A stretch of 64,000 nucleotides of DNA from Owenia fusiformis (Eukaryota > Annelida > Polychaeta > Sabellida > Oweniidae), in assembly GCA_903813345.2 (NCBI GenBank), contig CAIIXF020000011.1, forward strand, positions 23,419,754-23,483,753, read 5' to 3'. Each line of letters starts with the position of its first letter. Position 1 is the first letter of the stretch. The position numbers were made by a program, and so were the translations under genes. Under the pieces are notes generated by a model. The model was not told where the DNA came from. It saw only the letters and a program-made list of their open reading frames with translations, and did not search any database. Positions 450 to 62,737 of this stretch are shown here, one piece after another.

Positions 450-3400
450 GTGGTTTGTTCATGTTACTAAGGGACTCAAAAAGCGGCGTTGTGGAAGCAA
501 TAGATGGTAGAGAGACTGCACCGCTTCTAGCAAATAAAACGATGTTCGTTGGGAGGACGGACGATTCGAAATTAGGTAAAAGCCAAAATTTTACTATTTG
601 ACAGGCTAATAAAACCCCATAGGAATCTTTGTAGCCTCAATCACCCAAGTGCAAGTTTCATTGATATAAGAACAAACAAAAGTCAAAATGGAAAGTGTAT
701 GGGAAATGTAAATTAAAAGATAAAGAAATATGAAGGAACATGAACATATTTCTTTAGGACAATAGACGAAATGCTAATTAAACAGGCAATGTGCCTATTT
801 TTGAAGGCAAGGGGACAAAATGTTATTTGAGACATGTTGTGTGTGACATGTTACCCACACACTCAATCAAATATGATGAAAACTTTAATTTGGGTCAATA
901 CTGGAGTGAAAAAAATCACTTGCATAGAAAACAGCATTTGAAGTTCAGAGATCAAAACAAGTGAATTGCCATTTTTCACTTTAGTGTATGTTTTAAATAA
1001 CTCTTGGATTAAAAGATGGCGTATGGTTGAAATTCCTATCAAAAATGAATGGATAACTAATGCAAACAACAATACCATCTTTCAATGGCATTGCTAAAAA
1101 CTTGAAATATATAAATTGATAGATCGAAAATATTTTTTCATGCATGATCTAGTGTCAACTCTGATGTGATCTGTTTGAGGTGTTTTTGGTGTCAAATAAA
1201 AGATCAGGTACTTAATAATCCATTGGAAATACTATGAAGATCAAAACTGAGACTTTATTTACGCATTTTGTTCCTTTAAGTCACCTGACATGTACATGGC
1301 TTATTGCCATTAATCCATTGCAACTAATGTTTCATCAATAATGTTAAGGTAGGAGAAGGACGTAAAAGTCAATAAGAATATGTTTGAATCACTTCATTTC
1401 AGGTCCATTGTCGATAGCAGTACCAAGCCTTGTACGAGGGCTATGGACAGCATTTACAAAGTTCGGATCTGAGCAAGTGAAATGGTTTGACCTCCTGACA
1501 CCGTCCATAAAACTATGCAAAGAAGGTATCGTCGTTACAGACGAATTGGGAAAAGATATAGGATTTGTCATTGAATTGATTCAAAATGCTGAAAAAGAAT
1601 ATCCACAGGAGTAAGTGAATAAAAATATCCTTCAAAGAAGTACGTACTTTTGATGATGACTTTAAATCTTTACTACATTCAACTATGTGCAACTCATTCA
1701 AAATAACATTGACTTGTAAAATGCTCACTTTAATTACAAAAATAGCAGTGCATGTTAAAAATATTTCACGTGTGACATGTTTACGAGTGTACATATGATT
1801 TCTAAGGTACATTTTGAATAAACAACATGATTGGAGTGAATATTTCACAGTTGGCCACGAACGAAATATGTTCCGAGTCTTGGTCGTTATGTTGTCATTT
1901 CCTGTTCATTTATCGTGTTCATATAATACCATAAGGTGATCATTTGAAAAATATTAATTTGCTATAAAGGATTTACTACACCTTGGCGTTGCCGTTATCT
2001 AGTGAACATACGCATAAATGATTCTTTTAACGTCTTTGTCAATGTGCATGTTTTTCTTTATTGTTAGAGCACCTTTTCATAACAAAGCTGAAGGAAGACC
2101 TTATAAAGCAAGAGACATAATGTTTAGACCAAAATATGGAGCAACTTTACAGCAAATAGCTACTGACCCATTAAGCTTGGATAGAACAATTGCAAACGAA
2201 ATCCAGAAAATGGGTATTTAGTATGAATTTTATACGAATATTCAATTCTATTGAGATGAATACCTGCGCATCACTCACAAGCATTATTGCCCAAACTCCT
2301 GGGTCCAAGGGGAGTATTGAACCTGTGAAATATGTACAGGTATTCACTAGAAAGTGAATTAATATTCCTCAGTCACATGCCTAATCAGGGAATATCTCCA
2401 AGTCACGTGTAGGACATAATTTATAAATCAATCAGAGAGTGAAGAATATTCCAGTGATATAATGAAGTATAATATCAAAAGGGAATAATGTATATATAGC
2501 AAATTAATTAAATTGTTCTGGTTATTGAGACACAAACGTTCTTACCTTTATCAATAATTTCTTCCTATATATTTTAAGGTGGAATTATAACAGAGCAAGA
2601 TTTGAAAAGCTACAATGCCATTGTAAAAGATCCATTGGTGACACATCTCGAAAATGGAGATCTCAGTGTGTATGGTATCCCTCCACCATCAAGTAGTGCC
2701 GTCTTGCAATATATACTGAATATTTTAGATGGATATAACTTTAACAGCACCGACTGCTCTGAAATTGACTTTGAAAGTGACTCTACATCTGTTACTTGTC
2801 ATCATCGTCTCATAGAGAGTTTTAAATGGGCATATGCAAAACGAGCCAAATTAGGCGATGAGGAATATGTTGACCAAAAATATGTAAGCCTCGCACATTA
2901 TACAGCATGACAAAAAAATCCACCTCGTGTACTAATTTTTTAGAGACGCTCTCAATAATTAAGAAATCTTCATGATTTATATGTTAAGATATAGTGTTCA
3001 ATGGACAAAAGATTGGTATGCTTGGATACCATCAACAACTTGAGAATTAAGAGAAATCTCGTTTTCCGTGTAGGTATGCTCTGACACAAAATCACTCATA
3101 TGAAAATCTGTCTTTCTTACAAAAAACAATAAGCGAATCAAATTTGACAAAGTCATTTAAGAAAAATTGGTAATATGACATATTATAATATACCTATGAT
3201 GATGTATAGTGTAAACTGTTCACAAGACAGCAGGCCAATATAACTTTTGAAAAGCCCGCGCCCGCTAACTTTCTGATTGGCCAAGCGCTGGGACTACGTC
3301 ATACATTATGTCTAGGTCAAATTAACTCGTACATTCGTAAGATACAAACATGGAAATAAATCATCATTTCCGAACCATTGCTAGTCAATAAGATAAGAAA

Positions 3401-6400
3401 ACGGTACTCTCTGACCAGGCTAGATCATCATAGGTATGTTATAAATCGTTTATGTCACTATAGTTGCACATATGCCCTCGGTTCTCAGTGATCAATGTCC
3501 CTCCCAAGGTCGGGTCATATATCACTGAAACCCTCGGGCATATATGCAACGATAGTGACATAACCTCTAAATATTGATAATATATGTGTAAAGTAATGAA
3601 AGCAATCCAGTAATGACCTAAATTATGGCAGAAACAGAGATCTAGATTTCAGAAAATTGCATTTTTGAACATATTTTGATGTTTTCACTGAGAGCATACC
3701 TGGACGGAAAATGTGATATCTCTAAATCTGAAGGTTGTTGATGCTATCCAAGTACAACTACAATCTTTTTTCACAAACAAATCACGTGGATTCCTGAATT
3801 ATTGAGAAAGTTATTCCAAAATTATTGGGTGTTTCTAAAATACACTTCCAACGGTTCAATTGTAATCAGAATTATAAATTTCAACAGTGTTAACACCAAA
3901 CATAACATATCTTTGTGTAAGACAGATTTTGTAATATGTCAATCTGGTACTACGATTTGTGCCTTGACCAACCTCAATGTAAAATAATGCGTATTATGGA
4001 CAGACATCTCACACAAGAAACTGTCCATTATATCAACAATTGATTATTTTTTCCACAAACCGATTACTATATCTAGTACTCAGATTCTTCCTGAAATGCT
4101 AGCACAAAAAACTGCTGCACAAACTAATGTTCAAAGATCAGGCCATAATGCTTCCTACTATATATGGAGAAATATGTTATTAAATATATTGTCCATATAA
4201 ACATCTACATATTGATACTTTTCATTAATTGATTATTCAGATTCTTCGTGAAATGCTGTCTCAGACAACTGCCGCACAAACCAGAGCTAGGATATTCGGT
4301 GACAAGACCTTTCATCCTTCGTACTATGGAGAAACATTCTATGACAGACTCACTAAAGGAACTGCTCATACTTCTATAGTTGATGAAAATGGTGGCATAG
4401 CAGCCTTCACCTCATCCCTCAATTTTGGGTGCGTAATGTCAATTTATTTTGTCGTATGTACATCGGGAAGGGTGTCGAAAGAAGTTCGGGGGGATATACA
4501 GAACAGCTCCATCCGTACGTACTACGTCTGTACGTCTGTCCGCACAGTAAATAATAACTCAAATATCGTTGGCCCAAGATCGTTTATATCGTGCACGTAT
4601 ATGCCATATTCGCGTGCAAGTTCAGCTCGAAAGTCGATTTTCAAAGTGGCCGCCTGTTTCAAAATAGTGACCATTTTAGTGTCAGTTTCACAATATTTTA
4701 GATACATCATGTAAAACTGAAATAGTATATGTTTTTTTAATGCAAAATATTATTTAGGATATTGATTTATTGAAAATCTAATCTACAGTGCGAACAGTAA
4801 ATAATAAAGGGTGGGTTTTCACACTGAAACTCAAACTCCATGGAACGAAACGAAATCAAAAGAAAAAACACGGCACACGTCGGGCGCATGCGCAAATAAG
4901 TTAAAACTAATGAGATTATTTGCATATTTTGCACACATGAATTATTTGCTTCTGGGCACTTACCATCCTGAAATATTTTCTGGAAAAGTGTTACTTTTGG
5001 CCATTTGTGTTAGTTTTGAAAAAAGGTATGAAAATCTATCGATAGGCCGGACTCTGTTTATTTTCTGGAAGTGCTACTTTTCGCCATTTGTGTTGGTTTT
5101 TGAAAAAGGAAAGAAAATCGATAAATACTGAAGGCTGGACTCTATTTTCTGGAAAAGTGCTACTTTTGGCCATATGTGTTGGTTTTGAAAAAAGGTATGA
5201 AAATCTATCGATAGGCTGGACTCTGTTTATTTTCTGGAAAAGTGCTACTTTTGGCAATTTGTGTTGGTTTTTAAAAAAAGGTATGAAAATCTATCGATAG
5301 TGTATCGATCTTTTAGCTGCTACCTTTAGCCATTTGTGTTAGTTTTGAAAAAGGGTCCATTTTATGCTATACGTTAACTCTTTTGACGACGGAGTCCTGT
5401 TCTAATTTTTTAATCTGTCCCTGATGCCCGGTCATTTCAAAAAATCTCTACCCTATATCGTGACATATATCTCCGTTTGGTGCATACTAATGTACAGTGA
5501 TTATGTTGAAAGTATGTGAATACTTATTTAAGCATTTTACACTTTCCAATGACATTTTGATTAGTAAGCGGCCTTTTCGAAAATGGTTGCCATTTTCCAG
5601 TGTGTTATTTACCATTATTTATATTATTTATTTTGTTTATTTATCATAATAGTATTTATGATTCAGTCGCTCAGATTGCTGTTAGGTACTTGCTCGTTGC
5701 ATAAAGATAATAAATGAATATATACAAAATATGCAACATGTCACAATCTAAGACACCACAATGGCATATAAAAGACTATCGCGTGCTAGAAAAAAGAGTT
5801 CTAAATAAAAAATAAACAAAAAGTAAGACTAGAGTCTAATGCTGTAAACATGGAAAAGCTTCTCTACTATATATACATGTAGGGTGTCTCAAAAAAATGT
5901 ACCCAAAAGTATATCAACAGCACAGATAAACCAATCAATATTTTCAGATATTTTTTGCATGCTCTTGTAGCCAAAGCATGAAAATGTTATCCCCTATACA
6001 CAGCTTTTAATTCTGTCTTGTCTTTTTGATGCTTTAACCCTTTACCTTTAACACCACATTTTCAGGATAACCTCATATTTCGATGACAGCCTGTCGCCTT
6101 ACTGCTATATTGTTCATCACATATGATATTTCTGGTGGAATGTTTTGGATTTCTCTCTGGATGCTGGCTTAAAGTTGTTCTAGGTTTCTTAGCTTGAGTT
6201 TAGCATAAAAAAGTCCTTCAGATGGCCCCAGAGAAAAATGTATTGGCCTTCAAATCTGGTGAACAGGGAGGCCCTCACAATGTCTTATACCCCCCTTATA
6301 CAGAGAGATCAGACGTTTAAGAAACTATGTTCGTAGGTATTCTTGTGTGGCCCTTGGTGTGTGTGGAGGGGCTCAATCATTTTGAGACCACTGTGAAATC

Positions 6401-34700: not shown

Positions 34701-37700
34701 ACCTATTATATTGAGAAAAAATCTAGAAAATATGGAGGTATAGGAAATAAAGTCAAGTTACATCTCCTCGTGTATTATTAGTTTTTGCAGGCAATGCCAA
34801 TAAAAATACAAACATAGAGAGGCTTTAACACATAAACATATGGGCAAAAAAGTTGTCAAACTTATGGAGAGGAGTGTAATACAGAAATAGATTGCACATA
34901 CAAATCAGTGTTCAATATGCCATATTTTCACGCATCCGTGACTATCGCTCCATCAAATGAACTTTAACACTTCTTCGACGCCCAGGTGGTTTGTTCATGT
35001 TACTAAGGGACTCAAAAAGCGGCGTTGTGAAAGCAATAGATGGTAGAGAGACTGCACCGCTTCTAGCAAATAAAACGATGTTCGTTGGGAGGATGGACGA
35101 TTCGAAATTAGGTAAAAGCCAAAATTTTACTATTTGACAGGCTAATAAAACCCCATAGGAATCTCTGTAGCCTCAATCACCCAAGTGCAAGTTTCATTGA
35201 TATAAGAACAAACAAAAGTCAAAATGGAAAGTGTATGGGAAATGTAAATTAAAAGATAAAGAAATATGAAGGAACATGAACATATTTCTTTAGGACAATA
35301 GACGAAATGCTAATTAAACAGGCAATGTGCCTATTTTTGAAGGCAAGGGGACAAAATATTATTTGAGACATGTTACCCACACACTCAATCAAATATGATG
35401 AAAACTTTAATTTGGGTCAATACTGGAGTGAAAAAATCACTTGCATAGAAAACAGCATTTGAATTTCAGAGATCAAAACAAGTAAATTGCCATTTTTCAC
35501 TTTAGTGTATGTTTTAAATAACTCTTGGATTAAAAGATGGCGTATGGTTGAAATTCCTATCAAAAATGAATGGATAATTAATGCAAACAACAATACCATC
35601 TTTCAATGGCATTGCTAAAAACTTGAAATATATAAATTGATAGATCGAAAATATTTTTTCATGATCTAGTGTCAACTCTGATGTGATCTGTTTGAGGTCT
35701 TTTTGGTGTCAAATAAAAGATCAGGTAATTAATAATCCATTGGAAATACTATGAAGATCAAAACTGAGACTTCATTTACGCATTTTGTTCCTTTAAGTCA
35801 CCTGACATGTACATGGCTTATTGCCATTTATCCATTGCAACTAATGTTTCATCAATAATGTTAAGGTAGGAGAAGGACGTAAAAGTCAATAAGAATATGT
35901 TTGAATCACTTCATTTCAGGTCCATTGTCGATAGCAGTACCAAGCCTTGTACGAGGGCTATGGACAGCATTTACAAAGTTCGGATCTGAGCAAGTGAAAT
36001 GGTTTGACCTCCTGACACCGTCCATAAAACTATGCAAAGAAGGTATCGTCGTTACAGACGAATTGGAAAAAGATATAGGATTTGTCATTGAATTGATTCA
36101 AAATGCTAGAAAAGAATATCCACAGGTGTAAGTGAATAAAAATATCCTTCAAAGAAGTACGTACTTGATGACTTTAGATCTTTACTACATTCAACTATGT
36201 GCAACTCATTCAAAATAACATTGATATGTAAAATGCTCACTTTAATTACAAAATAGCAATGCATGTTAAAAATAGTTCACGTGTGACATGTTTACGAGTG
36301 TGCATATGATTTCTAAGGTACATTTTGAATATACAACATGATTGGAGTGAATATTTCACAGTTGGCCACGAACGAAATATGTTCCGAGTCTTGGTCGTTA
36401 TGTTGTCATTTCCTGTTCATTTATTGTGTTCATATAATACCATAATATAAGGTGATCATTTGAAAAATATTAATTTGCTATAAAGGATTTACTACACCTT
36501 GGCGTTGCCGTTATCTAGTGAACATACGCATAAATGGTTCTTTTAGTCTTTGTCAATGCGCATGTTTTTTCTTTATTGTTAGAGCACCTTTTCATAACAA
36601 AGCTGAAGGAAGACCTTATAAAGCAAGAGACATAATGTTTAGACCAAAATATGGAGCAACTTTACAGCAAATAGCTACTGACCCATTAAGCTTGGATAGA
36701 ACAATTGCAAACGAAATCCAGAAAATGGGTATTTAGTATGAATTTTATAAGAATATTCAATTCTATTGAGATGAATACCTGCGCATCACTCACAAGCATT
36801 ATTGCCCAAACTCCTGGGTCCAAGGTAGAGGTGTCAAGTATTAACCGGTTAACCGGTTAACCGCCGATAATGCCTTGAACGGTCTGTGTTTTTATGGGCG
36901 GTTAGTTGACCGTGTATAATTCTGTTATTTTCCGCGCTTATTTTGCATGCTAATCCGTTTGGTTTTATGGTGTCAGTTTCACGTAAGCTACTCATACATG
37001 TCATAAGTCCGATAACTCCTTACAAACATCCAATCAGCAACTTTAATCCCTGCCACATTGCTTTCCCGCGCTTACGTACATAGAATAGAGTAAAGCTTGA
37101 CGAACGTAAAAAATAAACGCCGATATATCATTTTTCCAATTTTTTTCAACTTTCAAGATCGAAGATGAAGATTTCATTTGAAATTATCAGTTCAAATTTC
37201 CCGCCGGTTAACCTACTTTAACCGGTAAAAAAACCCAGTTAACCGGTTAATGCTCAAGCGGTTAATTGACACCAATAGTCCAAGGGGAGTATTGAACCTG
37301 TGAAATATGTACAGGTATTCACTAGAAAGTGAATTAAATATTCCTCAGTCACATGCCTAATCAGGGAATATCTCCAAGTCACGTGTAGGACATAAATCAA
37401 TCAGAGAGTGAAGAATATTCCAGTGATATAATGAAGTATAATATCAAAAGGGAATAATGTATATATAGCAAATTAATTAAATTGTTCTGGTTATTGAGAC
37501 ACAAACGTTCTTACCTTTATCAATAATTTCTTCCTATATCTTTCAAGGTGGAATTATAACAGAGCAAGATTTGAAAAGCTACAATGCCATTGTAAAAGAT
37601 CCATTGGTGACACATCTCGAAAATGGAGATCTCAGTGTGTATGGTATCCCTCCACCATCAAGTAGTGCCGTCTTGCAATATATACTGAATATTTTAGATG

Positions 37701-40700
37701 GATATAACTTTAACAGCACCGACTGCTCTAAAATTGACTTTGAAAGTGACTCTAGATCTGTTACTTGTCATCATCGTCTCATAGAGAGTTTTAAATGGGC
37801 ATATGCAAAACGAGCCAAATTAGGCGATGAGGAATATGTTGACCAAAAATATGTAAGCCTCGCACATTATACAGCATGACAAAAAATCCCCCTCTTGTAC
37901 TGATTTTTTAGAGACGCTCTCAATAATTAAGAAATCTTCATGATTTATATGTTAAGATATAGTGTTCAATGGACAAAAGATTGGTATGCTTGGATACCAT
38001 CAACAACTTGAGAATTAAGAGAAATCTCGTTTTCCGTGTAGGTATGCTCTGACACAAAATCACTCATATGAAAATCTGTCTTTCTTACAAAAAACAATAA
38101 GCGAATCAAATTTGACAAAGTCATTTAAGAAAAATTGGTAATATGACATATTATAATATACCTATGATGATGTATAGTGTAAACTGTTCACAAGACAGCG
38201 GGCCAATATAACTTTTGAAAAGCCCGCGCTCGCTAACTTTCTGATTGGCCAAGCGCTGGGACTACGTCATACATTAGGTCTAGGTCAAATTAACTCGTAC
38301 ATTCGTAAGATACAAACTTGGGAATAAATCATCATTTCCGAACCATTGCTAGTCAATAAGATAAGAAAACGATCTGCCCAGGCTAGATCATCATAGGTAT
38401 GTTATAAATCGTTTATGTCACTATAGTTGCACATATGCCCTCGGTTCTCAGTGATCAATGCCCATCCCAAGGTCGGGCCATATATCACTGAAACCCTCGG
38501 GCATATATGCAACGATAGTGACATAACCTCTAAATATTGATAATATATGTGTAAAGTAATGAAAGCAATCCAGTAATGACCTAAATTATGGCAGAAACAG
38601 AGATCTAGATTTAAGAAAATTGCATTTTTGAACATATTTTGATGTTTTCACTGAGAGCATACCTGGACGGAAAATGTGATATCTCTAAATCTGAAGGTTA
38701 TTGATGCTATCCAAGTACAGGGTGACAAAAAAACTGGAACCCATAAATCATCAAATTTCTTGAAAAGTATTATACCTACATTCTTCATTTCTTCAGGGTA
38801 GAAACTAGACTGAATGCATGACAAAATGACACCATAATGAGTACTGTAGCTTAGATATTAATCATGCAATGGACGACAGAAGAAAAGACTTATATTGTGA
38901 GAAAGTATATCGAGACAAAATCTTATAAAGAGACACAAACTGCCTATAGGAGAGATCACAGGGCAAGAAGAGCCCCTTGCAAGTCACAGATCTTTAGGCT
39001 TGTGCAGAAGTTTGAAGCAGAAGGAACTGTAAAACCAACAAAGAAGAAAAGTGATGGTAAACCAACCTATGCGGGGAGAGAGAGGTCTGTCAGAACTCAA
39101 GACAACTCAACAGTCAACTCAGAACGTTATATCCCTAACGTTCAAAAGTTTTGGAGAGCGCTGGGTAGACGATGTGACTTGAGAAGGGACCAGCAATGGT
39201 TCCAACAAGATGGTGCCACTCCCCATACCTCAAATGTGTCCATTCAATGGCTTCAGGCTCACTTTGGTGATTGATTAATCAGTCACCATACCCGCCACAT
39301 CTGCCCCCCCCCACTCCCCTGATTTGAACCCCCACAATTTTATTTGTGGGGGTATCTCTAGGATAATGTGTATACAGATAGTCCACTGACCATTGATGAC
39401 CTCAAACTCAACATTGGAAGACTAATTAGAGAGATAGACAGAGATGAATGCAGTCGGGTCATTGACCATTTTGCAAGAAGAATCCAGCTCTGCATCCAAC
39501 GTGGTGGTGCACATTTGGAGCACATTATCTAATCGTGCCTCATTTGAAGACTTATTTAGCTAGAATGCTAAAACTTTAACATCTTGTCATACATTCAGTT
39601 GACTATACATGTACTAAATAACTAAGCTCAATATGCATAATTGACGACGTTATTAAGACTTAAGTGGGTTCCAGTTTTTTTTGTCACCCTTAGCCTTGCC
39701 CAAGTCGGTCTCTTTTACTATCTGATTTCTATTATGACCGCCGGTAATAATTCAAGATCAGATAAGTAAAAAATACCGACTTGGGCAAGGCTATGTCACC
39801 CTGTACAACAATCTTTTTTCCATTGAACACTCTATCTTCAAAAACAAATCACGTGGATTCCTTAATTATTGAGAAAGTTATTCCAAAATTATTGGGTGTT
39901 TCTAAAATACACTTCCAACGGTTCAATTGTAATCAGAATTATAAATTTCAACAGTGTTAACACCAAACATAACATATCTTTGTGTAAGACAGATTTTGTA
40001 ATATGTCAATCTGGTACTACAATCTATGCCTTGACCAACATAAATGTAAAATAATGCGTATTATGGACAGACATCTCACACAAGGAACTGCCCATTATAT
40101 CAACAATTAATTATTTTTTCCACAAACCGATTACTAGTATTCAGATTCTTCCTGAAATGCTAGCACAAAAAACTGCTGCACAAACCCTAACTAATGTTCA
40201 AAGACCAGACCATAATGCTTCCTACTATATATGGAGAAATATGTTATTAAATATATTGTCCATATAAACATCTACATATTAATACTTTTCATTAATTGAT
40301 TATTCAGATTCTTCGTGAAATGCTGTCTCAGACAACTGCCGCACAAACCAGAGCTAGGATATTCGATGACAAGACCTTTCATCCTTCGTACTATGGAGAA
40401 ACATTCTATGACAGACTCACTAAAGGAACTGTTCATACTTCTATAGTTGATGAAAATGGTGGCATAGCAGCCTTCACCTCATCCCTCAATTTTCCGTGCG
40501 TAATATCAATTTATTTTGTCGTATGTACATCGGAAAGGGTGTCGAAAGAAGTTCGGGGGGGGGATATACAGAACAGCTCCATCCGTACGTAATACGTCTG
40601 TACGTCTGCACGTCTGTCCGCACAGTAAATAATAACTCAAATATCGTTGGCCCAAGATCGTTTATATCGTGTACGTATATGCCATATTCGCGTGCAAGTT

Positions 40701-54483: not shown

Positions 54484-55759
54484 GGTTTAGTCCAGTTTTA
54501 TTTATTCAGTAGTAGTTTGCCTCTCGTATGCTTCCAGTAAGCATTTATCATCTTCGATGAAGTTGACGTTCAACACGTCTTAGCTTTAGCGAGAAGCTGT
54601 GACTTAAATCATTTGATGGTTTAACTTGCCAATAAAATGAGCTACGGTAATAAGTTCTGCTTTTTCGATTTCTGGATAAAATGACAAACTTGCAAAATCA
54701 TCAAATCAAAATTTCTAGCTTTACAGTAAAAGTGTAGTAGTATTTCTATGAATGATAACTCTTGGTACAATCTTCTATAGATCTAGATAATACTAAACGC
54801 AAATTACCAAAATCAAATATGAAATAATAGAGTTAAAGAAAATCAGAATTTATTATAAATGAAGAATAAGTTGTATATTAGGACCATATGTTTTCATTCA
54901 GAATATTACGATCTTGTGCCATCTTGATTGGTCATCTCACAAACCTAATATCTTGGGATTTTAGCTTTTCCATATTCTATTTTGTTCCACTTTGAAAAGC
55001 GTTCAATCTGATCTACATAACAATGCAAAGTACACTTTTAGTCAGTAAACATTTCATGAAAAATAAATGGCAGTTTCGAGTACCCTAAAACAGTTTATAG
55101 TGATAATTTCTTACATCAGAACATTTTGAATATGTGTTATATCGACCATTTTATGTCAAGTAATCGACAAGGTATCAAGACCCCAAATCCCCCCACCCCC
55201 TTATCTACTTGAGGTCGGGGGATGGTCTTAAGTCTGCAAGACTAAACAATTATGATACGTGTTTGTAACCATTTACATGTGGTAGCATTTCGTCGTTTGC
55301 CTTGTTCTACAATCAGCCTGTTCAAACGTTGACTTTGAGATGGCCCCCCCAAGAAACAAGCTTTGTAGCTTTTCAATAAGTTACCATCTAAATGAGTTAT
55401 TTTTATATGAATCAAGTAGAAACAGGTTGGTCTAATAAAAATCCTATAATGGCAATTAAATTTAATAAATAGATAATTGGTATAATGATGTTCATATCTG
55501 GTTAAGAGGTTCTCTAATTAGTCACTGAATTATTTATCAAGAAATTGTGAGAGCCTTTTCTAGTCTATTGCAAATTTTCAGGTGTGGTGGAATCAAAGGT
55601 ATGAATCTCAAAACTAGAATAGACTAAATATTACACGAATGTAGGCAAGTATCATAGCAGTGGGCCCAAATAAAGAGTTCTATTAAGCATGCCTTCAATG
55701 ATTGACGACGTCATCACTTCTACAAGAGTCAAAATATTAGACATTTGTAGACAGACTAA

Positions 55760-55766
55760 TATATAA
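55760..55766 (+). promoter_or_regulatory. TATA box of the 113-aa propeptide gene
   Basis: TATATAA lies 44 bases upstream of the ATG, placing transcription start near 55790 with a 5' UTR of about 20 bases. A CRE-like GACGTCA is about 50 bases further upstream (near 55707). The spacing supports exon 1 as a true first exon. Confidence 0.5.
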
Positions 55767-55809
55767 CAGGGCTTGTATTGGAGTTTGGAGTTACATTATA
55801 GGAGGTGAA

Positions 55810-58800
55810 ATGAAGACTTGGACCATTAACTTTTACCTACTCTTATTAGCCATTATTAATGGTAAGTTTATTTGAGCTTTTTTATTCGTTGGGTTTATGG
55901 GGGTTCAAATTTTGTTGTCTCATACCTTGTAGTAAGTAAGATTGTACCTTGTTCAAACTAAAAATCAAAAATGGAAACGGAATTCTTACTAGCAATTTGT
56001 AATGGTAAGATTCTTATTTTGGTTTACGTGGGAATTACTTTCTAGTGATTTTGTTTTTTTTGTCTTTTCAAAAACACGATTGTAATTTCATAAGTAAGTT
56101 TCGTTGAAATTTTTATTAGTTTATATTTTATTTGTTCATTGGGGTTTGATTTTTGATTTTTGTTGTGAAATGTGTCATATTTTCTGGTTTGATATAATGT
56201 AAACGTTACATTATTTCAACCATTTGGTTTCATTTTATGTACTTTAACATTGTCAAAAAGTATTTCAAAGTGCTCTCCATTTGATTTTTGCTTACTATAG
56301 CAGCAGACTATAGGGTGTACGAAAGGTTGGAAGGTCTCTTCAAAAAAGCGTTTCAAAATGTTTGCGTACTAAACAATTTGGAAGTTCTTGAAGATTCAGA
56401 ATCGTCCAAAATTAGAATTGGAAAAAATCATCCAGGATTTTCACATTTGTCATACAACCTAAATATCAAAATTGTCATATAAATAAAGTCAGAACTGTTG
56501 GACAATATAAAAAAGAGACATGGTATGCAAAGATGGGAGCAAAAATAGAGTAAAATTGTGACACAGAATTTAAAAGAATTGCTCTCAATTCTCAAATCTT
56601 TATTGTACATTTAAAAGATTACCAGATTACGGAGTTCAGAAGAATGTTCCCAATTCTACACTATTTTTACTAAATTAATACTAGTATAGCATTAATCATA
56701 AACATTGGCATCTTCTATCCATTCCACATATATCAAGGAAATTATATCAATAGTGACGATAAAAGTTTTTTTAAGATATTAGCTTGGAACCCTGTATACA
56801 CTTGACTATAGCGTAGGGTTTTGATTTTGAGCGCAATCATTAAACATGTTTCAGACATCCTCCATTCAAAATGGACGATGTCTCGAACCACGCGTTTGTA
56901 GAATATGTTCAATGCTGTTACTAGGCAACAGTTCTACATATACTTGTAAGCCCAAAAATTAAACTTTTCATTTTGATTTCAATTTTATACATGGCAATTC
57001 ATAATGCAACTTTTATTTTCAGGTCATTGTTTTACAATTTATGCACCAAAGTTCTATCACGATAAAGGCCTCTTGGATCTCACAAACACTCTCTTCAAAG
57101 ACAGGTTAGCAAATTTAGCTCATTTTGCATCCCATGGTGATCCCTTACATCAATGGTGCTGCACCCATACCACTGGTGATCCGCTCGATTTCGCTGGTTA
57201 CCGAAACGCTTCGGTAACAAAATGTCGGAACCTCGAAGGTACGATTTTTCTGTTTTCCTTATTTCACGCGTTGTAGGCAGAATTCCCACGACATTTTATC
57301 AAAAACGTGTGTCAATATCATATGTTGAAGAAAATGAACATGTTTGTGAACAAATAGTTCAGAAGACAACATCGTCGAATCGTCGATTTATAACCTCATT
57401 TTAAGTTCAAAAACAGTTAAGATCTGCACTTCTAACCCATTCCGTTTACGTAACCTATAGTGAGGATTTAAATCGACGATTCTATTGTCTTCTAAAGTAT
57501 GTGTTCGCAAACATGTACAAATGATACTGACACGTGTTTGTGATAAAAAATGTCGTGGGAATTCTGCCTACAACTCGTGAAATAAGTTAAAGAGAAAAAT
57601 CGTACCTTCGAGGTTCCGACATTTTGTTACCGCAACGAATCGTTTCGGTAACCAGTGTAATCGAGCGGATCACCAGTGCATTCGAGATACTAGAAATTGA
57701 CTTGCACCCTCTTGAAAATATTATTTACACCCGATTAAGATAATAGAAAACATCAACCATTGACAGATTTTGACAACCGTTGTCACAAATGGCGAACGTA
57801 ACCGTAGTTTTAACTCTTTAATCACTCGGTTTCATTTCATGGGACCTTATCGTCGCTGATTTTGTGCATGTATTAAGCTCTTGTGATGGTGTATCATATG
57901 AAAACCCTATCTCAATCAAATGTGGTCGTGAATCGCCACAACGGCATCTGACTTTACCGTTGTCAGGGTATTCCGCTGTGATAATGGGTTACTCATATAA
58001 ATCAGATTGTCATGAAGCGTATCGTTCAATTTACAAATTGCTATTTGATATATTAACTCGATTTATACCTTTAAATGCCACCAAACATATAGTCATTTTC
58101 CATGAGCCAATCCTGCCAAGAAAACACGGATGAGCAATAGGCAAAGTACTTCAGGGTGTTCTGAGTGGTCCACAACGTAGAAAAGGCTGTGTGTGTACTT
58201 GTATGACTATGTATGAGACCACATAAAAGAACACAGGGCTCTTCCAAGGAAAGTGCAAAAATAGGGGGACATTGTTGGTTTTCCTGAAATAAAGTATGAA
58301 ATTTCGGGATTTATAGAAAATACACATGACAAGGAATGACATGAGCCAAAAACCTTCTTAAATACATATAGTATTGCTTAAGGCTTTAAGCATTGAACTC
58401 AGTGCATTGTGTGTTTAACCATTCCACAAAGACCCCACAGGGGGAATGCAAAGTTTAGGAAACAACATCTGAGTAGAATGAAGCAGCCACAATGCATTGA
58501 GTCTTGGGCTGAAATTCTTTTCACACATTGCAAAATATTTTCTATATGATAAAATCAACTAAAAGATACAAAATCACTTAAAGAACATATTTTCAATGAA
58601 ACGTTTTGCAAGGGGCAAGTATTTGAAAACTCAATCTCAATCGCTTAGCAATTGTACACAACAAATGCGTTATTGATATTTCACACACTGTTCATTATGT
58701 GAATACTCTGTTCGGGTTGGCTGGAATCGGACACACCTTACCTAGCTATGTGTGAATTCTTTATCATGTGAACATAATCAATTATCATAACTTGTGGGAC

Positions 58801-61800
58801 ACCCTGTAAACACTTTCTGTTAAGTCCTCTCTCTAGATCTGATTTTTGCTCGAATTCGAGGGTAAAAAATACCAAGATGTAGTAAGAAGATATTGTAATA
58901 CCCAGGTGTTGTAAATCAGGCGAAAACTCAATCAAATTAAGATGCATTCAATGTCCCAACTCCACATGTCCAAAAATAGACCCAAAAGACTAGTCAGCAT
59001 TTAAAAAATAGGGCTATTGTCAATCACGTTTACGATAAAAACCTAATAATCTGATCCAGCTTAGATCTAACAAACGATTACCATTGAGTAAATTGAAGAC
59101 AGGCCTGACTTGAATGAAATTACCCTGGACCTAAGGACCTGTTTATCACTACGCTCTGAAAAGGACGTAGGATGTTGAAGAGATCTTCATGACCCTAAAC
59201 GTAGCTATTGTGGTCTTTTATTTGATAAAACAAATGACTATTGACTACCTCAGTCGGAATGTATAAAATACCTGTAACTGTTGATTGACTTGTTGGATTT
59301 TCATTGACCCATTCATAATTGAGTATTGGTATATCAAAGGATTGTTACTAAAGAGTAATAGAGTGTAGACGAAGCTCTCTTTTAAGAAGTAAAATAATAC
59401 AATTGAAAAGGGTGGAATAGAATGACAAGAATAAGAAACGCTTTTGCAACCACCCCCAATGGAACAATAAATAGTGAATTGAGGACATTAGTAGATTCAA
59501 TCAGGACTAAAGTTACAGCTTCTACTTAATCATAAAACATTGGTTTCCTATTAATGAAGTAAAATCCTACTCTCAGTGCCGTTAAACGACACATTTCTTC
59601 AGAACACTTGAAGGAGTATTTGGTTTTGTGCATTTCTGGAAAATAATATTTGGGTTTGTGTTTGTAATTTTCTCAAACCATAAACTCCGTAGGAATGTTC
59701 AATTTGATTCATATAGCTTCTATCTACAACTAAAAATAGGATTGTTGAATTATATACAACCCTTGTGGTGATTTTTCATATAATGTACGGTAAAATGAAG
59801 TATGAAATGTTCATACAGTATAGAATAAATTGAATTGAAATTTAAAAAATCCCCCCAACTTTCTCAATTAACAGATACTTATATTGGTAAAATTGACGTC
59901 ACGATTAGGTTTAACAAATGCAATCAACAAATACTTAAAAGTGAACAGAAAAACCTGTGGCCTGTTTTAAAAAATCAATTTATAAGTTAAAATAAAATTT
60001 GTATTCCAAGACCTTCAAATTAGACTCAGTTAATCATCATTAAAAATCAATTAAAAGCTTGAATTACCCTATTTGGGGAAATACTGCTATATTAACATGG
60101 CCATGGCCAATGGTGCTAACTGCCACTAAACTACAACTAAAGACACACAACTATTGGCACTTTACAATCATTTTATTAAACAGCACATAAAATATTGTGA
60201 CCCCTTGGGATATTACACATTCGCACATTTTCCCTGCTAAGAAACTTTTTCTGTTAAATTTCTCTCTCAGTTCTCTCCGTTTTCTGATTAATATTTGAAT
60301 GTGCTACCTGATTTTCTGATATTTCTACACAATTCAGTAGTATTTACTTCCATACTTGGTACTTTGTTCTTTCCTGATACTACCCCTTTGCATTCTATGT
60401 CAAATCTTAGAAATGCGACGTTGATCATAATATCATTAGGCACATTTGAGGATGAAGATTTCTTTCAATAAAATTCTGGATCTTGGTCTACGTGCTTATC
60501 CACACGTTTCTACAAGTTTTACAACTATTATCTTGGCTTCAAGGTCGTATATTAATTCTTAATAAAATATGTACTATAATTTTCAAGCAATATCAATTAA
60601 AGATGTACCTGAGTGTCAGAATTTTAGGCACATTTGAGGATGAAGATTTCTTTTAAGAAGCAAAATTAATAGTAAATGGGGTATTAAAAATGATGTATGA
60701 CAGATACTGCCTATTACCAAGGACGACTGGATCCCAGAATGCAATCTCGATATTTTCCAACAATGATAAAATAGTGCCGTGGGTCCTGGGCTCACATGGT
60801 ATTGATCAGCAAAGAGAAAAGTGAATGATGGCTAAAATGGCAGACAATTAAAAAAAGCAGATAATTTTTGCCAATTCTTTTTGAACCAGGAGTCATATGG
60901 GGAGGGGGGTCTGTATTGGTGTCAAATAAAAATAACTTAAAACGGGATTCCTATCGACAGATGTTTTAAACCAAATGGTTCAAAAGTGGATTTCGCGAGA
61001 CAGATGGACAAATCAATGTTAACTAAAAAGGCTGAATATAAAAAAAACGGATAATTTTTTTTCCCGATTTTTTGTAACAAAATTATTTGATACAACTACT
61101 CTTTACGGTGACATGGCTTTTTACGAGGCAGGCCACCTGAAATTACTTATAAAGCTACCAAATAGTCCAAGAATTTCGCGAGACAAAAATGGCGGCCATT
61201 TTGAAAATAGGCGAGCTTTTGAACCAGGAATCATAGGGAAGTTTTCTGTATTGATGTTGAACAAAAATAACTTAAATTGGGAATCCAATCAACAGAGGTT
61301 GTAAAAGAAATGGTCAAAAAGTGGATTTCGCGAGACAAATGGACAAATCAATGTTTACTAAAAATGGCTGAAAATAAGAAAACGGATATAGATTTTTGTA
61401 ACAAAACTATGTCATACACTCTTTACATTGACATGGCTTTTTACAATGCGGGACACCTGGAATTATTCATTAAGCTACCAAATGGTCCAAAAGTGAATTT
61501 CACGAGACAAAAATGGCGGCCATTTTGAAAATAGACGAGCTTTTGAACCAGGAGTCATTGTCTGACATTAAACAGGTTATAAAATCATAATCAGCAATCC
61601 AAAAGATTCGCGCTATAATGTCTTGATCACTTCTTGTGTGTTTTGATTTTTTGTTATATGAATAACTTTAACCATAGAAATACTTTTGAATTAAAATGAT
61701 TTTTTTACAGGACGGTAACATATTCATTAAATGTTAATTTAGAGGTAAAAATCCCCAATTAGCGTCACCCTCGGTCAATATGATATTTTCCTTGACCAAT

Positions 61801-62096
61801 ATGATATTTTAAAATTCATATTCCAACCCTCTCATTAAATAACCTTACTATTAATTTCCCTGTAATCATAAATATATTTCTTTTACAGGTATGATAACAT
61901 GGAAGAGCCTTCGATGATAGACAAACGGACAGAAGAAACATTAGCACATTGTATCCAGTTCCACTGTGGAGGAATTGGCAAGGGCGGCCGAGGGAAGTAC
62001 CTCATGTGTCTACACAATAGGTGTCTTCGCTCAGTCAAAATGCAGAAAAATAAACGAATGGACGAAATAATCAACGAGCCTGTAGACTTCCCATAA
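55810..62096 (+). CDS. Predicted secreted cysteine-rich propeptide, 113 aa, 3 exons
   Basis: Exons 55810-55861 (phase 1 end), 57023-57104 (phase 2 end) and 61889-62096 (TAA). They sum to 342 bases, in frame, with GT-AG introns. Exon 1 is a signal peptide: MKTW, then a hydrophobic core NFYLLLLAII; cleavage is likely near residues 18-20. Exon 2 is a short acidic/basic propeptide. Exon 3 holds Lys57-Arg58, a core with Cys66, Cys71, Cys85 and Cys90 (CX4C-X13-CX4C) around a Gly-rich basic GGIGKGGRGKY segment, then Lys100-Arg101 and an acidic tail. Convertase cleavage at both sites would release a peptide of about 41 residues (59-99) with two likely disulfides. A TATA box lies 44 bases before the ATG and an AATAAA 151 bases after the stop. 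Intron 2 (4.8 kb) contains a fold-back and an older TE. I do not recognise the family: a peptide hormone or neuropeptide is plausible, an antimicrobial peptide possible. Exon joining is inferred from phase. Confidence 0.6.
56301..56482 (+). other. Possible alternative terminal exon of the propeptide gene
   Basis: Open frame after a TAG/CAG/CAG acceptor, in the phase left by exon 1 (phase 1). It would give a 77-78-residue secreted protein beginning after the signal peptide with ADYRVYERLEGLF and ending at a TAA. It has one cysteine and no dibasic site. Length is within chance for AT-rich DNA; no polyadenylation signal is obvious close by. Confidence 0.2.
57171..57678. mobile_element. 508-bp fold-back MITE, family F1 (propeptide intron 2)
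   Basis: Same family as 16627-17015 (CACTGGTGATCCGCTCGATT end; GGTTACCGAAACG inside), with a longer centre. Begins 66 bases after the propeptide exon 2 donor. No clean TA duplication remains. Confidence 0.8.
57864..58133 (+). other. Open frame of unknown meaning
   Basis: 90 codons containing LSSCDGVSYENPISIK and IVIFHEPILPRKHG, stop, then a SINE tail 10 bases later. No family recognised, no splice sites or start context that support it. It lies in the large intron of the propeptide gene. Listed only because composition looks less random than its surroundings. Confidence 0.15.
58144..58245 (+). repeat. SINE tail, 5'-truncated
   Basis: Same tail as the SINE at 20884-21080 (AGTACTTCAGGGTGTT, CATAAAAGAACACAGGGCTC) without the tRNA-like head. 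Confidence 0.65.
58487..58760. repeat. Third, diverged copy of a GGT 3'-flank segment
   Basis: Resembles 15435-15705 (copy A) and 49040-49300 (copy B): GCATTGAGTCTTGGGCT, TATTTTCAATGAA, TTGGCTGGAAT-GGACACACC, CTAGCTATGTGTGAATT. Clearly more diverged than A versus B, so it is probably a dispersed repeat rather than part of the tandem duplication. Confidence 0.7.
58761..60779. other. Propeptide intron 2, no recognised features
   Basis: AT-rich sequence with short recurring words (GAGGATGAAGATTTCTTT at about 60451 and 60630) and no coding signal that I can support. Confidence 0.45.
60780..61560 (-). mobile_element. Inverted relative of the 24531-25595 element (propeptide intron 2)
   Basis: Carries the reverse complements of the same words (TTTCGCGAGAC, ATGGACAAATCAATGTT, ATGGCGGCCATTTTGAAAAT) in two to three repeats, and begins with GTGGGTCCTGGGCTCACATG. 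Short frames within it are not genes. Confidence 0.75.
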
Positions 62097-62246
62097 TTCT
62101 TTGATTTCACGGTGCTGTAATGGGGAACACAGACAGGCGTGTCTATTTTATGTTTTACAGACTTTAATTGCGAATCATGTCTTATGATGGAGCTACTATT
62201 AGTTTGACTTTTTGTATGATGATATCTTGAACTTCCAACTTCGTAA

Positions 62247-62252
62247 AATAAA
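62247..62252 (+). terminator. AATAAA polyadenylation signal of the propeptide gene
   Basis: AATAAA 151 bases after the exon 3 stop, followed by a T-rich stretch. It is the first canonical signal downstream of the stop. Confidence 0.5.
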
Positions 62253-62737
62253 GTTTTATTTTTGCACGGCATCAAAAACCAATCGTTTCTCTTTCTCTCC
62301 AATGTCTAACTTGTAAAACTAACAACATGGATGGGATCTTCATTGGAGGAATAAAATGGGTTTATGCTTCTTTGTCTGAAAAATAAAAAATAACCAAGGA
62401 ATCGAGTGTATACTGTAGGCACAAAATGCAACAATGGAAATGCCATTAAATCAGGTAATCAATTCAGACGTTAGATGAATTATTGCAACAAAAGTTCAAA
62501 TCGATTCATACTTCTGAAATCCACTTTGATGTGGGAAAAATAAAGATACAAGGCCACATACATCAAATACTGGAAAATAGAAGCTTTTATGACCATGAAA
62601 GTCAATCGTTAAATGCATCCGAGAACAAGCAAAATATCTATTGTCAAATACTTCTAATACGATCTGCGTTAATCTGGTAATAGCTATTACAGCAGTATTC
62701 TATTGTTTTGATACACTTACAGTGACTACTTAACCTA

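Follow-up and report, generated by a model that had tools for sequence, protein, structure and literature searches.

The locus considered here raises the question of whether a 64-kb stretch of the Owenia fusiformis genome (C11:23419754-23483753, hereafter the window) holds a gene for a secreted peptide and, if so, what the released peptide would do. Owenia belongs to the clade that is sister to all other annelids (PMC10880339), and for this reason an orphan processed peptide in this genus would help to tell ancestral from local peptide signals. Developmental RNA-seq, from fourteen samples, has been published for Owenia (PMC9977687), and the use of in situ hybridisation has been described, as has a larval apical organ rich in neuropeptides (PMC10880339); the latter paper stains four conserved peptides, and the words cysteine and prohormone are absent from its main text. 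The candidate is concrete and testable in Owenia, and ordinary in kind; cysteine-bearing orphan precursors have already been reported in annelid and mollusc catalogues (PMC6425005, PMC3890597).

A first-pass annotation had proposed that three exons join in phase to a protein of 113 residues, and the spliced translation of the exons listed in Table 1 reproduced this result: 113 amino acids and a stop codon are encoded, without any premature stop or break of the frame, and the exon lengths give intron phases of 1 and 2. The splice sites, previously described as consensus, ranked high when all GT and AG dinucleotides on the plus strand of the window were scored with generic metazoan matrices. Donor 1 was 3rd and donor 2 was 39th among 3528 GT, while acceptor 1 was 11th and acceptor 2 was 2nd among 3238 AG. 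The TATA box and the AATAAA signal were both located as well (starting at 55760 and 62247, respectively), the promoter and polyadenylation signals lie at ordinary distances from the gene, and the presumed 5' UTR, from the Inr-like site to the ATG, is about 17 bases long. Exon 3 is richer in GC (0.438) than its surroundings, with only 3.6% of the 208-base stretches of the window reaching that value.

Table 1. Features of the candidate peptide gene, in window coordinates.
Feature	Position	Strand	Remark
Segment recurring on chromosome 1 (promoter, 5' UTR, exon 1, donor)	55707..55899	+	genome match
TATA box TATATAA	55760..55766	+	31 bases upstream of Inr-like TTACATT
Inr-like site TTACATT, presumed transcription start near 55793	55791..55797	+	consensus match only
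Exon 1	55810..55861	+	ATG and the greater part of the hydrophobic leader
Exon 2	57023..57104	+	leader end and most of the propeptide
Exon 3	61889..62096	+	propeptide end, KR, four-cysteine core, KR, acidic tail, stop
Lys-Arg 57-58 codons, presumed convertase site 1	61923..61928	+	cleavage inferred
Core residues 59-99, CX4C-X13-CX4C	61929..62051	+	position count
Lys-Arg 100-101 codons, presumed convertase site 2	62052..62057	+	cleavage inferred
Acidic tail, residues 102-113	62058..62093	+	translation
AATAAA	62247..62252	+	polyadenylation signal downstream of exon 3

A CRE-like site at 55703 was also considered as promoter support and was dropped, since such sites are common both in shuffled sequences (at least one in 37 of 300 shuffles) and in the window itself, where a perfect CRE is found 8 times. 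Two further reading frames, one on the minus strand over exon 3 (61883-62305) and one in intron 2 (57822-58133), were taken as chance frames; neither gave a Pfam match with E up to 0.1, in a search covering 10 of the 22 window frames of 100 aa or more. No Rfam family and no tRNA was found within the 64-kb window.

Intron 2 contains several repeats. Soon after exon 2, at 57171-57678, the sequence shows foldback-like inverted repeats, of 96 bases (92% complementary) and of 43 bases (93%), perhaps a small transposon. Two tandem units of roughly 320-335 bases, 80 to 95% alike in parts, occupy 60910-61558, and an interspersed repeat lies directly before exon 3, at 61765-61870, with matches in at least 39 other places (39 of 40 scored, among 529 candidates).

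To what extent such an arrangement might arise by chance was assessed with shuffled windows. The peptide pattern alone, defined as exactly four cysteines in 12 to 36 residues with a KR on either side, is weak evidence and was dropped as proof, because it turns up in shuffled windows too: without any splice demands, it occurred in 25 of 400 order-1 and in 36 of 400 order-3 shuffles, and a four-cysteine frame with any dibasic pairs in 220 and 263 of 400, respectively. The stricter form of the pattern, with an AG before and an AATAAA after it, was found in none of 60 order-1 shuffles. A blind scan for three-exon secreted genes was then applied to both strands. Each model had to have an ATG exon, a hydrophobic leader, an in-phase internal exon and a final exon coding for at least 40 residues; donors had to reach 3.9 bits and acceptors 5.6, and introns could span 50 to 6000 bases. 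The scan returned 2 models in the window, which have the terminal exon (61889-62096) in common, the second differing by its first exon (55971-56004). No model was returned from 150 order-3 shuffles, with or without cysteines. The splice model, unlike the peptide pattern alone, is decisive and in our opinion convincing, on scan thresholds that were set near the weakest observed site scores and are hence post hoc.

A non-working gene, consisting of chance frames or of the remains of a decayed gene, would agree with the frequency of the KR-flanked pattern in shuffled windows, but it is very unlikely given that no three-exon model of like quality appeared in the 150 shuffles, that the frame is intact and that the promoter and polyadenylation signals are ordinarily spaced. 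As judged from its DNA, the window probably holds a three-exon orphan secreted-peptide gene.

The predicted precursor consists of a hydrophobic leader, a short propeptide, Lys-Arg, a 41-residue basic core, Lys-Arg and an acidic tail, and translation, charges and hydropathy are all in accordance with the layout that had been claimed for it. Hydropathy of the leader rises up to 2.1 over residues 5-15, and the leader ends near Cys20. The other cysteines of the protein, at positions 66, 71, 85 and 90, lie within the core (residues 59-99) with the CX4C-X13-CX4C spacing already noticed by the first-pass annotation. Net charge is -3 for the propeptide (residues 21-56), +5 for the core and -4 for the tail, and the core is Gly-rich, with three His beyond its +5 charge. 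Lys-Arg 57-58 and 100-101, which flank the four-cysteine core, are the only dibasic pairs in the 113 residues; a hydrophobic N-terminal leader and flanking dibasic sites, as generally expected of dibasic-processed precursors, are both present. No glycine stands ahead of Lys-Arg 100-101, thus making an amide on the core peptide unexpected. The helix moment of residues 80-97 was reached by 7.8% of 2000 shuffles, near significance, and that of residues 59-72 by 56%, which is not significant; no fold is therefore claimed.

The lack of a match to any known cysteine family, also claimed beforehand, was borne out within Pfam, NCBIfam and the PDB sequences. The spliced protein retrieved no family from Pfam or NCBIfam with E up to 10, the 35-residue core had no match among PDB sequences, and the 55-residue C-terminal end had 7 PDB matches up to E 10, of which the best (E 0.3) was read, like the others, as chance. 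Searches of viral and prokaryote contig collections gave 2 and 22 pattern matches, respectively, none of them confirmed. A microbial or viral origin was discarded, there being no confirmed relative in these collections, which are not meant for animals. In the Owenia genome (498,259,871 bases in 525 contigs), exon 3 is single-copy with E up to 10. That this genome belongs to an annelid agrees with the annelid haemoglobin-linker domain PF16915, which gave 3 matches, each above its cut-off, among 6 candidates scored (one with an internal stop), and was found in 0 of 14 control genomes. When the literature was searched by cysteine spacing, the four-cysteine pattern was absent from the titles and abstract openings listed, and the precursor was not found in the excerpts covered of the annelid and mollusc peptide literature (PMC8557429, PMC6425005, PMC3890597, PMC8398477). 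The putative peptide may be called undescribed in the sense of not being found within Pfam, NCBIfam, PDB, the viral and prokaryote collections and the literature searched.

Several known peptide systems share single traits with the Owenia core. Oxytocin/vasopressin and CGRP-type peptides have a six-residue CX4C disulfide ring, with one ring and a C-terminal amide, and in vasopressin-type precursors a CX4C-P-x-G peptide comes directly after the leader, together with neurophysin. The six-residue CX4C is also present in the Owenia core, but P-x-G after CX4C and neurophysin are absent, the core begins at residue 59 and no Pfam domain was found. Calcitonin and CGRP-type peptides are characterized by an N-terminal ring and an amidated C-terminus, whereas the Owenia precursor has no Gly before Lys-Arg 100-101 and no Pfam match. 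Alpha-hairpinins are helical-hairpin peptides of the CX3C-Xn-CX3C type and, as in the Owenia core, their cysteine pairs are placed symmetrically around a linker; their CX3C, however, suits one face of a helix, while the CX4C found here does not.

PXRX proneuropeptides of conchiferan molluscs have four conserved cysteines, thought to form two disulfides, and a P[FM]R[WY] motif in all but two of the sequences (PMC6425005). The four cysteines are common to both, but the motif is absent from the 113-aa protein of Owenia. Platynereis has orphan cysteine-bearing proneuropeptides, such as WLD, SHM, RNT, SLL-1 and SLL-2, for which no orthologue was found outside the species (PMC3890597). They resemble the Owenia candidate in annelid host, precursor layout, cysteines and orphan status.

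The reading we prefer, with a probability of roughly 0.55, is that of an orphan dibasic-processed precursor whose 41-residue peptide would act as a neuropeptide or peptide hormone; the weights given to this and to the three other readings are judgements. The leader would direct the precursor into the secretory route, a prohormone convertase and a carboxypeptidase would cut at Lys-Arg 57-58 and 100-101 and trim the basic residues, and the product would be a basic peptide of 41 residues, not amidated and stabilised by two disulfides, which would act through a receptor once released. In our judgement, the short peptide, the dibasic flanks and the single copy suit a signalling peptide.

Two disulfide pairings may be envisaged. 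In the first, a nested hairpin would form between the outer (C1-C4) and the inner (C2-C3) cysteines, which is allowed because the cysteine positions are symmetric (66+90 = 71+85); what counts against it is that the adjacent cysteines of a CX4C point to different sides of a helix or strand. In the second, each CX4C could just as well form a six-residue ring of its own (C1-C2 and C3-C4), resembling that of oxytocin or CGRP. It is decidedly unlikely, in our estimate, that the peptide represents an oweniid- or annelid-specific hormone family with two independent six-residue disulfide rings on a flexible Gly-rich linker. If this were true, the two-ring layout, which had no match in the sequences searched, could engage two receptor sites.

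Counting against a hormone are the predicted lack of a C-terminal amide, when many neuropeptides are C-terminally amidated, and a basic, Gly-rich, cysteine-stabilised core with an acidic pro-part, which is also a host-defence layout. The core (+5, with three His besides), the propeptide (-3) and the tail (-4) would also suit a host-defence peptide, in which an acidic precursor would release a basic, Gly-rich core, stabilised by disulfides, that attacks the membranes of microbes, and a four-cysteine annelid peptide, perinerin, is antimicrobial (PMC6780910). Perinerin and the Owenia core are both basic and both end with a CX4C pair, but the perinerin spacing, counted from the printed sequence, is CX2C-X27-CX4C and differs from the CX4C-X13-CX4C of Owenia. 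Moreover, amphipathicity is weak, and there is no BRICHOS or macin match, because the precursor has no Pfam domain at all (BRICHOS being absent with E up to 10). Host-defence peptide genes often occur in families, and the gene is single-copy in the genome. Host defence is, in our estimate, the main alternative but a somewhat unlikely function for the core, and the neuropeptide or hormone reading is the more likely of the two.

The four-cysteine protein might also be secreted for other purposes, as a small protein of gland, tube, cuticle or egg coat or as a growth-factor-like ligand, with its Lys-Arg pairs left unprocessed or cut by furin. This would be consistent with the second site, which reads K-N-K-R and fits furin too, and nothing points specifically to regulated secretion. 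The presence of just two dibasic pairs, so placed that they bracket the cysteine core, argues for processing instead, and we hold this explanation to be unlikely.

A segment of about 190 bases containing the promoter and exon 1 (55707-55899) recurs at 95% identity on chromosome 1 (L002:1892-2082). The copy is most likely a short inserted DNA fragment with a target-site duplication, for which C11 was the source; it is read as an insertion because it sits between exact 17-base direct repeats (L002:1875-1891 and 2089-2105, repeat coordinates read by eye), and six extra bases are found at its right end. With respect to the source it carries 8 substitutions and one 2-base gap, all outside 55772-55884. 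These middle 113 bases are unchanged, with exon, 5' UTR and donor identical, and the TATA box is intact; the unchanged middle is a weak hint that the chromosome 1 copy, too, is kept by selection. With TATA box, leader exon and donor intact, the copy might, in principle, give rise to a new transcript.

A second peptide gene on chromosome 1, belonging to a family with a common leader, was considered and rejected, as neither exon 2 nor exon 3 has a match there. The genome search with exon 3 (E up to 10) retrieved nothing on chromosome 1, and the query comprising exons 1 and 2 gave 3 genome matches, 1 of them on chromosome 1 and covering the exon-1 part only. Frames of chromosome 1 inspected by eye over 9,501 bases (from 2040 on, at least 25 aa) and over 10,000 bases (at least 30 aa) included no convincing downstream exon.

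Elsewhere in the window, gamma-glutamyltranspeptidase gene stretches were observed at 2578-4426 and 37481-37876, about 35 kb apart, with one exon frame nearly identical in both (two residues differ by eye). The frame at 38855-39271 is transposase-like and carries a helix-turn-helix domain (DUF4817).
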